Shown piece by piece: positions 17,260 through 34,397 of a stretch of 64,000 nucleotides of DNA (positions are counted from its first letter, which is position 1; every line of letters begins with the position of its first letter). The DNA comes from Burkholderiales bacterium. GTDB taxonomy: Bacteria > Pseudomonadota > Gammaproteobacteria > Burkholderiales > Usitatibacteraceae. The stretch is taken from assembly GCA_025360815.1 (NCBI GenBank), contig JANYBL010000115.1, forward strand, positions 1 to 64,000, read 5' to 3'. The notes beneath the pieces are model-generated. The model saw only the letters and a list, made by a program, of their open reading frames with translations. It was not told the DNA's origin and searched no databases. The translations under genes were made by a program, and so were the position numbers.

Positions 17260-19995
17260 CTATTTAAACGAATACGAAACGCTGCCAAAATATAAACGTC
17301 CACGTGGATCGGTGTAGTTCGGGTCGTAACTGGCCAAGAAGCTATAAATCTGGTTCGAGGTCGGTGGGTTGCGATCCAACAGGTTTTTGATACCAATGCG
17401 GAATTTCAACGCTTTCCACGGCGAATAGCTGCCCGTCAGGTCATATAGTTCATAGCTGCCCACGCGGCGCGGCTGGCCGTTGGCGTAAGGGTTCTGATCG
17501 GTATGTCCCAAATAGAATGTCTGCGACAGGGTTGCGCTCCATGCACCAATGTCATACAAAAACGCAGCCGTGTGGCGCCAGCGCTGAACCACTTGATCGT
17601 TGGCAAATTTCCCCACGCCATCAACAAACTCGGCACCAGGACCTGCCTGGGTTTTGTAATCAATGACGTACGTGCCGGTGAAGTTGATACCAAATCTGCC
17701 GTACGTTGTTTTAGGCAACCGAACATCAAAACCAAGATCCACGCCTGTCGTTTTCAAACCGCCCAAATTGCGCAGGCGTGAATCGATTTGGGTGATAAAG
17801 CCCGGAATGCCCGGGAGCGTCGGATCAGCCGCAGCGCGGGTAATGTATTTAGCGTAAGCAACTGGATCGGCGAAGTAAATACCCTCTGGCGATGCAATAA
17901 CGTCAGTCTTTTCAATCCGCCAATAATCTAGCGATACCGATAGTTCTTTCATGGGTTCAAAAACCGCGCCCATCGAGAACTGTTTAGACTCTTCAGGCTT
18001 TAAATCAGCAGTGCCGCCGCGCAGCTTAGCCGGCTGGATGCCACAATAGTCGGGGTTCGTTGTGTTATTAATGGCGCCGACACGGATGCAGCCGAGCGGA
18101 TCGTTATAAATACCGTTGGTTTGGCCAACCACCGTCGGTGAATATAAATCCGGCAATGACGGTGCGCGAAAGCCGGTGCCGTACGAGCCGCGCAAAACAA
18201 GCTCCTTGACCGGATTCCAGCGCAGACCAAGCTTTGGATTGGTCGTCGAGCCAACATCATTATATTTATCGAAGCGAACCGCTAGTTGGGCTTCGAATGT
18301 TTTGGTGATGGGTAGGTTTAATTCGCCGAACACCGCTGTCACATTGCGGCTTCCGGAGAATGGCGTGGCGCTACCATCGCCGCGAATTTCACCGGCCGCG
18401 AGCAATGTCGACGGTTTGAAATCGAGCTTTTCTTTGCGTACTTCCAAGCCTAATGCCAGAGCCGCATCGCCGCCGCCCATGGCGAAAATTGTCCTGGAGC
18501 CTTTAAGATCAAAAGTCGTCGTTGTGCCTTTTGAATCGCGCGCGTCATCTTTAATTTTAGCGGCGTTTAGCGCTGCCAAACCCGCCGCATCAGTCGGACC
18601 GAAAGGATTGAGGTTGCCGGTCAAAAACAATGTGTTGAATGGTGTGGTGGCCACATAACCATCCACATACGCGTCCGTTACCTTATTGGTGGCGTAGTTA
18701 AATGCCGAATCATAGTCCCACCCGTCCACTACACCTTTGATGCCAAGAATTAAACGGTCTGCTGTTGCCTCGACATCGTTGGTACGACCTCCCGCTTCGC
18801 TTAATCGGTAGTTCAACCGCAATGGCCCGGTTGTGCCGGCCAAGGCCGCAGTGGCAGTCGGATAATAGCGGCCATTGGCCGGATAGTTAAGATTGGTGAT
18901 GGTTAGCGGGCTGATGCGATATTGCGTTTTTGTTTCGCCGTGTAAATATTCGGCAAACAACGTCGTGTCAGCATCAATAGCAAATTGGCCACGGGTTAAA
19001 AATGAAGTGCGTTTTGAAGCTGGAAAAATTTCGGTGTCCTGCATGTAGTTATACAAACAGGCTTTGGAGCCAACAAAACTGTCCGGCGCATAAATGGTCG
19101 CTGGCGGGTTGCAGTTCGGTGCGGAAGGGTTATAGCGCGAGCCAGTCGCGGAGCCGCTGGCGCGCGTGCGACGGAAGTTAGCGGGATAAGTGTTGGAGCT
19201 ACCGACGTCCAAATTAATATCCGGTTGAAATACCGAGCCAATCCAATTGCGCTGAGTAGACCGCAATGTCTTGGTATCTTGATAGTCCAGCACGCCAAAA
19301 ATATTGAAGTGATCTTTGTTCAAATCGCCAATACCAGCTGAAAGCGTGAAAATATTTTTCCCCGCGCCGCCATGCTGTGTGTCGCTGACATAGGCTGATA
19401 GATCGAGGCCGGTGTAATCGCGTCGGGTAATAAAGTTAATAACCCCGCCAATTGCATCGGTGCCGTAGATGGCTGACGCGCCGTCTTTTAGAACTTCCAC
19501 GCGCTCAATGGCGGCTGATGGAATCGCGTTCAAATCAACGCCGCTGTTGCCGCCGGGCGAAGCAAAGTTCGCCATCCGGCGGCCATTCAGCAAAATCAGA
19601 GTCGATGAAACACCAATACCGCGCAGGTTTGCCCCGTTAAAACCGCGTTGGCCGGGAATATCGCTAAAGCTTGCGCCATCTGTTAACGCAGCTGAACTGG
19701 CAGAAATTTTGGTGAGAATTTCAGCTGCAGTTGTTGAGCCACCGCGTTCGATATCGTCGCGGGTAATGACTTGAACAGGCAAGGCGGCTTCGCCTTCAAT
19801 CCGCTTGATCGACGAGCCGGTTATTTCGATTTTTTCAACTTTTATGGTTGGTGCGGCGGGCGCTACCGGTGTTGATTGTTGTGCCCATGCTGCGGTTGCA
19901 AAGACACTGGAAGCCGCTGCCAATGCAATCACAACAGCTTGTGCGGTGCCCGACAGCGTTGGTGCAGTCAGTGAATGTCGCTTGGATGGTTTCAT
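17260..19995 (-). CDS. TonB-dependent outer-membrane receptor
   Basis: Signal peptide, plug motifs 'ITRDDIERGGSTTAAEILTKISAS', 'NLRGIGVSSTLILLNGRRMANF', 'IERVEVLKDGASAIYGTDAIGGVINFITRRDYTG', C-terminal YFGSVSYSFK. Confidence 0.95.
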   Translation of the reverse strand: MKPSKRHSLTAPTLSGTAQAVVIALAAASSVFATAAWAQQSTPVAPAAPTIKVEKIEITGSSIKRIEGEAALPVQVITRDDIERGGSTTAAEILTKISASSAALTDGASFSDIPGQRGFNGANLRGIGVSSTLILLNGRRMANFASPGGNSGVDLNAIPSAAIERVEVLKDGASAIYGTDAIGGVINFITRRDYTGLDLSAYVSDTQHGGAGKNIFTLSAGIGDLNKDHFNIFGVLDYQDTKTLRSTQRNWIGSVFQPDINLDVGSSNTYPANFRRTRASGSATGSRYNPSAPNCNPPATIYAPDSFVGSKACLYNYMQDTEIFPASKRTSFLTRGQFAIDADTTLFAEYLHGETKTQYRISPLTITNLNYPANGRYYPTATAALAGTTGPLRLNYRLSEAGGRTNDVEATADRLILGIKGVVDGWDYDSAFNYATNKVTDAYVDGYVATTPFNTLFLTGNLNPFGPTDAAGLAALNAAKIKDDARDSKGTTTTFDLKGSRTIFAMGGGDAALALGLEVRKEKLDFKPSTLLAAGEIRGDGSATPFSGSRNVTAVFGELNLPITKTFEAQLAVRFDKYNDVGSTTNPKLGLRWNPVKELVLRGSYGTGFRAPSLPDLYSPTVVGQTNGIYNDPLGCIRVGAINNTTNPDYCGIQPAKLRGGTADLKPEESKQFSMGAVFEPMKELSVSLDYWRIEKTDVIASPEGIYFADPVAYAKYITRAAADPTLPGIPGFITQIDSRLRNLGGLKTTGVDLGFDVRLPKTTYGRFGINFTGTYVIDYKTQAGPGAEFVDGVGKFANDQVVQRWRHTAAFLYDIGAWSATLSQTFYLGHTDQNPYANGQPRRVGSYELYDLTGSYSPWKALKFRIGIKNLLDRNPPTSNQIYSFLASYDPNYTDPRGRLYFGSVSYSFK

Positions 19996-20598
19996 GCTGG
20001 ATAAACTCCCTAAGTGTTGAAAATTGTAAAAGTCCAAATAGCGCAACTGCAGGTTCTAACAGTGTTCAAATAACGTTGTAAATGACGATTAAACAATTCC
20101 GAAAGTGGTTATATTCTTAGCGGCTTTTTAAGTGAAAAACGATATAACTTCCATCATTTTGCCAACCAAAATAGCTGAAAAATTTGGCGCTTACCGTTTT
20201 GTGATGCTTTGATGACGAAAGGAGTGTAAGCGCGATGTGTCACAAACAATACGGTGAAAACCAGATCAGTCGCAAAAGCACAAGTTGTAGTCGCAACGCT
20301 GAAAGCGGACTGTTGTATTTTAATAATTCGTTGTTAAATCAACAATTTAAGATCTCAATTGGTAGCTGCGCCGGTAGCCGTGCCATTTTTAAAAGTCTCG
20401 GATTGTCAGAATGCGACAAGTTGTTATGTTTTCATTACAGGCGCTGCCCGAAGCGCTTGGAGCTGTGTCACTATCGCTGCCGACGCATGAAAATGCGGGG
20501 AAATAATATTGGGCTTGCCCGCTGTTTTTACCCTTTCAAGGCAATTAGCTTTGATGCTGACGCAGCAAAATTGAAAATTGAGAAATCAAAATAGAAAA

Positions 20599-33012: not shown

Positions 33013-34397
33013 ACGCCACGAACGCTATGGAAAATATGAACCTAACAAATAATGCCCACGAATTTAACTTCGATGGTTTAGTCGGGCCAACCCACAACTA
33101 CAGCGGCCTATCGTTCGGCAATATCGCCTCAAAAAATAATCAGGGTGCCGTTGCTAATCCAAAGCTGGCCGCGCTGCAAGGTTTGGCGAAAATGAAAGCG
33201 CTCCACGATCGCGGCTTTAAACAGGGCGTCTTGGCGCCGCACGAGCGGCCCTGCCTTGCGACGCTTCGTTCGCTTGGATTCTCGGGGTGCGATTCGGACG
33301 TCATCCGCGCTGCCGCCACACAAGCGCCACTGTTATTGAGCGGCGCAAGCTCGGCGTCCCCCATGTGGGCCGCCAACGCCGCCACCGTCAGCCCCAGCGC
33401 CAACACACAAGACGGCCGCGTCCATTTTACGGTTGCCAATTTAAACAATAAATTTCATCGCTCGATTGAACACCCCACGACCGGCCGAATCCTGCGGGCG
33501 ATGTTTCCGAGCAATGCCCGTTTTGCGCATCATGCCGCGCTGCCAAGTTGCCCGCAAATGGGCGATGAGGGTGCCGCGAATCACACGCGCTTTTGCGGCA
33601 ACGTCGGCGAAAAGGGGCTAGAGTTTTTTGTTTACGGCGCATCGGGCTTCGATATGCAAGCATCGGCCCCGAAGCGTTTTCCTGCCCGCCAAACGTTGGA
33701 AGCCTCCAGTGCAGTTGCACGTCTGCATGGTCTCGATGCTGCTGGTACGGTGTTCGCACAGCAGCATCCCGATGTAATCGATGCGGGCGTTTTTCATAAC
33801 GATGTGATTGCAGTGGGCAATGGCAATGTGTTGTTTTGTCATGAGCAGGCGTTTTTAAATCAGACGAAAGTTTACGAGGCGCTTCGTACAAAATTTGCCC
33901 CAACATCGGCTAAACCGTTTGTGATTATTGAAGTCGCCACAGCAGACGTCAGCGTCGCCGACGCGGTCTCAAGCTATCTTTTTAACAGCCAACTGCTGAC
34001 CCGCGCTGATGGTGAGATGGCATTGATCGTCCCAGAGGAATGCCGCGCCAATGAACGAGTTTGGGCGTATTTGCAAAAATTGCTCACGCTTCATACGCCA
34101 ATCAAAGAACTACTCATTTTCGATCTGCGCGAAAGCATGATGAACGGCGGCGGACCCGCTTGCTTGCGGCTTAGGGTTGAGTTGAATGCGGCTGAAGCGC
34201 TGGCAGTAAATCCCGGTGTCTTGATGAATGAGTCGTTATTTTCGGCGCTGAACGGTTGGGTTGGAAAACATTATCGCGACCGATTGAGCGATGCCGATTT
34301 GGCTGATCCAGCTTTGTTGAGTGAGTGCCGGACAGCGTTGGATGAGCTGACGGAAATATTGAAGCTGGGCGTGGTTTATCCGTTTCAACTCGGTTAA
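33009..34397 (+). CDS. aruB: N-succinylarginine dihydrolase
   Basis: [77 protein letters not shown] overlap with aruD. Confidence 0.96.

Follow-up and report, generated by a model that had tools for sequence, protein, structure and literature searches.

The window analyzed here is a 64,000-nucleotide stretch from a Burkholderiales bacterium of the Usitatibacteraceae, corresponding to positions 1-64000 of contig C68 in a 3.74 Mb draft genome (99.99% complete). Between positions 17260 and 34397, it carries a gene coding for a TonB-dependent transporter (TBDT) divergent from cphE, which codes for a predicted cyanophycinase. The initial annotation, made from the letters of the window, had interpreted this locus as a means for a non-producer to use external cyanophycin. 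Family-model searches of the window proteins found all the genes named there to be present and correctly read: the TBDT is divergent from a cyanophycinase bearing a signal sequence, and an importer, an M14-like gene, an AraC-family regulator and five genes of the arginine succinyltransferase (AST) pathway follow co-directionally. The announced gene order of aotJQMOP-argR, J-Q-M-O-P and then AraC, was seen here and in relatives. From cphE to astB the genes are separated by short gaps, the longest being 247 bases (aotJ-aotQ) and 165 bases (aruG-astD). Promoter and terminator scans performed no better than on shuffled sequence. The features of the locus are as follows.

17260-19995, minus strand: TBDT of the cphE-linked clade (PF00593/PF07715; groups with all cphE-adjacent TBDTs)
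20268-20304, plus strand: putative tandem ARG-box-like operator, GTCGCN8AA-N6-GTCGCN8AA (pattern search)
20403-20439, minus strand: second, weaker tandem ARG-box-like site with 3 mismatches (same place in G018)
20599-22014, plus strand: cphE, predicted exported cyanophycinase, peptidase family S51 plus a C-terminal domain (families, AlphaFold model)
22088-22891, plus strand: aotJ-like periplasmic binding protein, Lys/Arg/Orn type (TIGR01096; Lys/Arg/Orn-binding proteins in PDB)
23139-23828, plus strand: aotQ-like permease (HisQ/ArtQ-type families)
23825-24511, plus strand: aotM-like permease (HisM/ArtM-type families)
24604-25746, plus strand: cphZ/aotO-like hydrolase, AstE/AspA fold, predicted beta-Asp-Arg hydrolase (PF24827; PDB 8ein/8eip)
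25748-26572, plus strand: aotP-like ATP-binding protein (HisP-type, 423 bits)
26627-27700, plus strand: AraC-family regulator with a DJ-1/PfpI-type N-terminus, in the ArgR position (PF12833, PF01965)
27766-29106, plus strand: astC/aruC, succinylornithine transaminase (TIGR03246, 674 bits)
29054-30241, plus strand: aruF, arginine/ornithine succinyltransferase alpha subunit (TIGR03245, 447 bits, cut-off 458.8)
30229-31347, plus strand: aruG/astA, arginine succinyltransferase (TIGR03244, 461 bits)
31513-33012, plus strand: astD/aruD, succinylglutamate-semialdehyde dehydrogenase (TIGR03240, 806 bits)
33009-34397, plus strand: astB/aruB, succinylarginine dihydrolase (TIGR03241, 746 bits)

The cphE gene was read from ATG 20599, TTG 20578 being rejected as its start, and encodes 471 residues. 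The protein matches PF03575 above the cut-off (38 bits) and falls slightly short of that of TIGR02069 (119.2 against 126.6 bits), a score which plausibly fits CphE rather than CphB. Its N-terminus is hydrophobic and of the Sec type, as judged, here and below, by a simple hydrophobicity scan; the signal peptides of CphE-type proteins are of the soluble type, with a lipobox in 2 of 101. The catalytic S193 (the Ser of GXSXG), H243 and E270 are invariant in nine family members and 34 homologues, as are Q158, D241, R247, R249 and R252, with the spacing of CphE and CphB, whose substrate pocket is built from these same five residues (PMC3235067). In the AlphaFold model (predicted local distance difference test score of 84), the closest solved structures are the cyanophycinases 7uqv, 7uqw and 3en0, with TM-scores on the target of 0.82-0.87 versus 0.65-0.74 for other S51 peptidases. 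The S51 protein of the window is thus probably a CphE-type cyanophycinase.

The 380-residue M14-like protein, whose kinship had escaped the initial annotation, matches PDB entries 8ein and 8eip, which we take to be CphZ structures, over 357 residues (E about 1e-76) and keeps a Glu at the position where 8eip carries an Ala. The Pseudomonas AotO is a CphZ, enabling the use of beta-Asp-Arg. The window protein resembles CphZ/AotO and is a predicted beta-Asp-Arg hydrolase; the lack of a TIGR03242 match ruled it out as the missing AstE. Enzymes annotated as 'M14 family' or 'succinylglutamate desuccinylase/aspartoacylase' are known to include a family specific for beta-Asp-Arg/Lys (PMC10206079). With such a neighbour, the aot transporter is more likely to import beta-Asp-Arg dipeptides than to be an importer of arginine alone. 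The aotJ-like binding protein scores barely above the TIGR01096 cut-off (256.6 bits). In the AST pathway, astC, astA, astD and astB exceed the curated family cut-offs and aruF lies slightly below. The pathway as annotated is complete for AstA to AstD but not for the fifth enzyme, since no canonical AstE was found by family-model search in the locus or in the rest of the genome. Two AstE/AspA-family proteins on C51 and C18 (L197 4359-5348 and L198 4446-5489) are candidates for the succinylglutamate desuccinylase step.

The full order TBDT-cphE-aotJQM-cphZ-aotP-araC-astC-aruF-aruG-astD-astB is also found in the genomes G018, G014, G013 and G009, and is followed up to contig ends in four further genomes of the family. 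Because the complete order recurs in relatives of two genera, it is not due to chance. In G010 (a single-contig genome), G011 and G020, aotJQM-cphZ-aotP and the ast genes are retained, to contig ends, and the loci contain no cphE, adjacent TBDT, araC or aruF. A wider survey of 80 cphE loci obtained by genome scan, mostly from Sphaerotilaceae and Oxalobacteraceae (three of them, L072, L111 and L112, overlap the family set), revealed that TBDT, CphE and CphZ stay together when gene order and transporter change. The order is YfcC-cphZ divergent from TBDT-cphE in Oxalobacteraceae, TBDT-cphE-cphZ-YfcC in G322 and aotJQM-cphZ-aotP-TBDT-cphE in G148. Where the aot ATP-binding cassette genes are missing, a putative basic amino acid carrier of the DcuC/YfcC type usually lies beside or near cphZ. 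An arginase is added at the Roseateles violae locus and a regulator of the RpiR type is present at the Undibacterium locus. Five Roseateles-group loci (L077, L085, L090, L093 and L100) carry two successive TBDT-cphE pairs.

The TBDT, whose best start is ATG 19995, contains the plug and barrel domains (PF07715, 80 bits; PF00593, 145 bits), and its matches among solved structures are generic and restricted to the plug of siderophore, heme and B12 receptors. A TBDT adjoins cphE in 53 of the 80 loci (43 divergent, 10 co-directional). All 64 cphE-adjacent TBDTs placed in a tree, together with one in-locus but non-adjacent TBDT, form a single clade (SH-like approximate likelihood-ratio test, 98), separate from the background TBDTs, those of the same genomes included, this background set being small and partly long-branched. 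To avoid neighbourhood selection, TBDT and CphE were each sought separately in 399 genomes of the order. CphE was present in 17 genomes, and a TBDT scoring above 700 bits, a line chosen post hoc after a gap in the scores had been seen, in 13; all 13 contain CphE, adjacent in 11. The TBDTs at 670 bits and below are in CphE-less genomes or are second copies. The first pass scored two candidates per genome, so that TBDTs may have been undercounted (e.g. in G013). The co-occurrence has a hypergeometric probability of 2.8e-21, a value that ignores shared ancestry, the 13 genomes spanning four families. The lack of co-occurrence in relatives that the initial annotation had named as a refutation was thus not borne out.

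The Pseudomonas ArgR binds the ARG box, a tandem TGTCGCN6GNAA with 5 bases between the halves (PMC10963909). The window site at 20268-20304, between TBDT and cphE, reads AGTCGC-N8-AA-N5-AGTCGC-N8-AA; its spacing is exactly that of the consensus, from which it departs at one G and at the base that opens each half. This site is the one place in the 3.74 Mb genome that matches the pattern GTCGCN8AAN6GTCGCN8AA exactly. The pattern was then sought in 28 genomes and in 1.60 Mb of cphE loci, with the reversed pattern as control. In the family, the tandem site occupies the TBDT-cphE intergenic region of nine cphE-bearing genomes, the exception being a contig-end fragment in G017, and the 19 other genomes gave three matches in all, consistent with the control (seven in 28 genomes). 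In the cphE loci, 24 of 24 matches lie upstream of the matched cphE start, at a distance of 177-419 bases, and the control gave 0. Twenty-two of them belong to the 26 loci having TBDT, araC and cphZ, the other two to loci cut by contig ends. At loci with two TBDT-cphE pairs, the site, where found, belongs to the pair that adjoins cphZ and araC; it was not found in the Undibacterium loci. A search for single half-sites with 1 mismatch was uninformative (76 matches for 77 expected), only the tandem form being specific. The AraC-family protein scores below the cut-off of the GbdR model; its operon position suggests an ArgR-like regulator, which may bind the tandem site.

The initial annotation had noted that no cyanophycin synthetase lies in the window, which is correct, and had presented the host as a non-producer, which the genome search contradicts. 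Contig C16 bears a second cyanophycin locus (L022, 5566-14626), whose genes share a strand and stand in the order TBDT-cphB-cphA1-cphA-like, which is also that of G018 (L066). The cphA1 gene scores 1040.8 bits (cut-off 850), and the cphA-like gene matches the Mur-ligase half only. Compared with relatives, cphA1 is one G short near codon 818 (L022 about 8078), leaving the last ~60 residues out of frame; the gene may have been lost recently, or the assembly may be at fault here. The host was consequently not assigned to a class of scavengers lacking cphA, cphA1 being present on C16 though frame-broken near its 3' end. Among relatives with the locus, cphA was found in G018, G019 and G021 and not in G013, G014 and G009. 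The C16 TBDT upstream of cphB-cphA was rejected as a cphE-type receptor, as it falls in a different clade. A third S51 protein (L023 3248-4936, contig C14) is exported-looking and has 562 residues with an extra N-terminal region; with no adjacent TBDT and a phosphate transporter as neighbour, it was not retained as part of the system.

Taken together, these data make it likely that the locus is a cyanophycin utilization system under arginine-type control. The use of external cyanophycin is supported by the conserved locus, the TBDT-CphE linkage and clade and the shared operator, and we infer the substrates, the direction of flow and the ligand of the regulator. The TBDT would carry cyanophycin fragments over the outer membrane; the Sec-exported CphE, acting either in the periplasm or outside the cell, would release beta-Asp-Arg from cyanophycin; AotJQM-P would import the dipeptide (and arginine), CphZ would split it into Asp and Arg, and the released arginine would enter the succinyltransferase pathway. 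The AraC regulator would activate the divergent TBDT and cphE promoters via the tandem site. Since the host is itself a cyanophycin maker, though possibly a lapsed one, polymer set free by the lysis of kin may be recovered through the locus as well.

Linkage, clade, co-occurrence and shared operator region support a functional tie between TBDT and cyanophycinase; the cargo of this TBDT is a matter of prediction. We tentatively propose, at a little under even chances, that receptors of its clade are dedicated to bringing cyanophycin oligomers through the outer membrane to a periplasmic CphE, with an ArgR-like regulator in direct control; the system, acting on a non-ribosomal polyamide, would then be built like polysaccharide-utilization loci. 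Several observations weigh against the scheme. Twenty-seven of the 80 cphE loci have no adjacent TBDT, some with complete upstream sequence (e.g. L083), so that the TBDT is not indispensable, and in two genomes, G081 and G284, it lies away from cphE. Intact cyanophycin is too large for a TBDT, beta-Asp-Arg fits through porins, so that a TBDT importing dipeptides is not obviously needed, and the arginine pathway is without a canonical AstE.

In a first alternative, CphE is extracellular, the dipeptides enter via porins and Aot, and oligomer import by the TBDT is a minor route. This agrees with the soluble-type signal peptides and with the occurrence of Pseudomonas CphE enzymes in the culture supernatant (PMC3235067), but leaves the close tracking of CphE by one TBDT clade unexplained, and we regard it as unlikely, though a serious contender. 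It is improbable that, in a locus otherwise devoted to cyanophycin, the TBDT imports another niche substrate (iron chelate, vitamin or other peptide) or mainly signals: the plug-only matches to siderophore, heme and B12 receptors and the cphE loci lacking a TBDT would suit such a role, whereas a single clade bound to CphE even in rearranged loci, the joint absence of TBDT and CphE and their common divergent operator region would not. A general cluster for arginine and isoaspartyl peptide catabolism, with the S51 enzyme cutting other beta-aspartyl peptides, could be invoked because the aot-cphZ-ast core occurs without CphE and family S51 also contains peptidase E; the invariant cyanophycin-specific pocket and the modelled fold, nearest to cyanophycinases, make it very doubtful. 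Least credible is the reading, which cphA1 and cphB in the genome might suggest, that the locus is there for cyanophycin stored by the cell itself, since the host CphB has no N-terminal signal whereas CphE has one, and the near-complete, locus-bearing relatives G013 and G014 lack cphA.

Cyanophycin is a large nitrogen store whose recyclers, and their means, are poorly known. As a cyanophycin utilization system, the locus defines a TBDT subfamily whose proposed substrate can be tested, carries a conserved operator from which induction by arginine or by the dipeptide would be expected, and offers a modular TBDT-CphE-CphZ core with which genomes can be screened for scavengers. It further raises the prospect that cyanophycin makers also consume external polymer. 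Elsewhere in the window, nitrate assimilation genes directly follow the locus (35110-45862: nirB, a nasA-like reductase, a YbiB-like gene, a tetrapyrrole methylase and a nitrate-type transporter of the ATP-binding cassette type), and at positions 53132-62423 a large RCC1/FG-GAP protein is followed by two others, one of the DUF1800 type, bearing PA14 and Ig domains, and one of the DUF1501 type.

Much of this picture is not new: cyanophycin-scavenging clusters have been described, as has the CphZ family (PMC10206079), and earlier publications also place CphZ within the aot operon and report, for one marine genus, a TBDT beside a cyanophycinase. A literature search, which left out most subscription papers, found no publication that deals with the operator, the exchange of modules, or the TBDT clade and its absence where CphE is absent; relative to the accessible literature, the TBDT clade with its CphE co-occurrence and co-absence, the modular TBDT-CphE-CphZ core and the tandem operator are new. 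The Pseudomonas aotJQMOP-argR operon has the same transporter order, a CphZ-type gene (AotO) inside and an AraC-type regulator after it, but the window locus adds a secreted cyanophycinase, a dedicated TBDT, succinyltransferase genes and an operator between TBDT and cphE. In Citromicrobium sp. JLT1363, a TBDT next to a cyanophycinase led, from gene proximity, to the same proposal, namely uptake of cyanophycin products, in one alphaproteobacterial case and without the clade, co-loss or operator evidence given here (PMC3400609). The CphE enzymes of Pseudomonas alcaligenes and P. anguilliseptica share with the window protein the Sec signal, the GXSXG-His-Glu triad, the pocket residues, their spacing and a length of ~420-470 residues; beside the catalytic His, the window CphE has the CphB-like Gln where that of P. 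alcaligenes has Thr, and its gene is set in a larger locus (PMC3235067). The scavenging loci of strain L21-Spi-D4 and Flammeovirga, often without cphA1, likewise combine a cyanophycinase, an isoaspartyl dipeptidase and a transporter (PMC10206079), whereas the window locus has CphZ instead of IadA/IaaA, together with a TBDT and ARG-box-type control, in a genome bearing cphA1.

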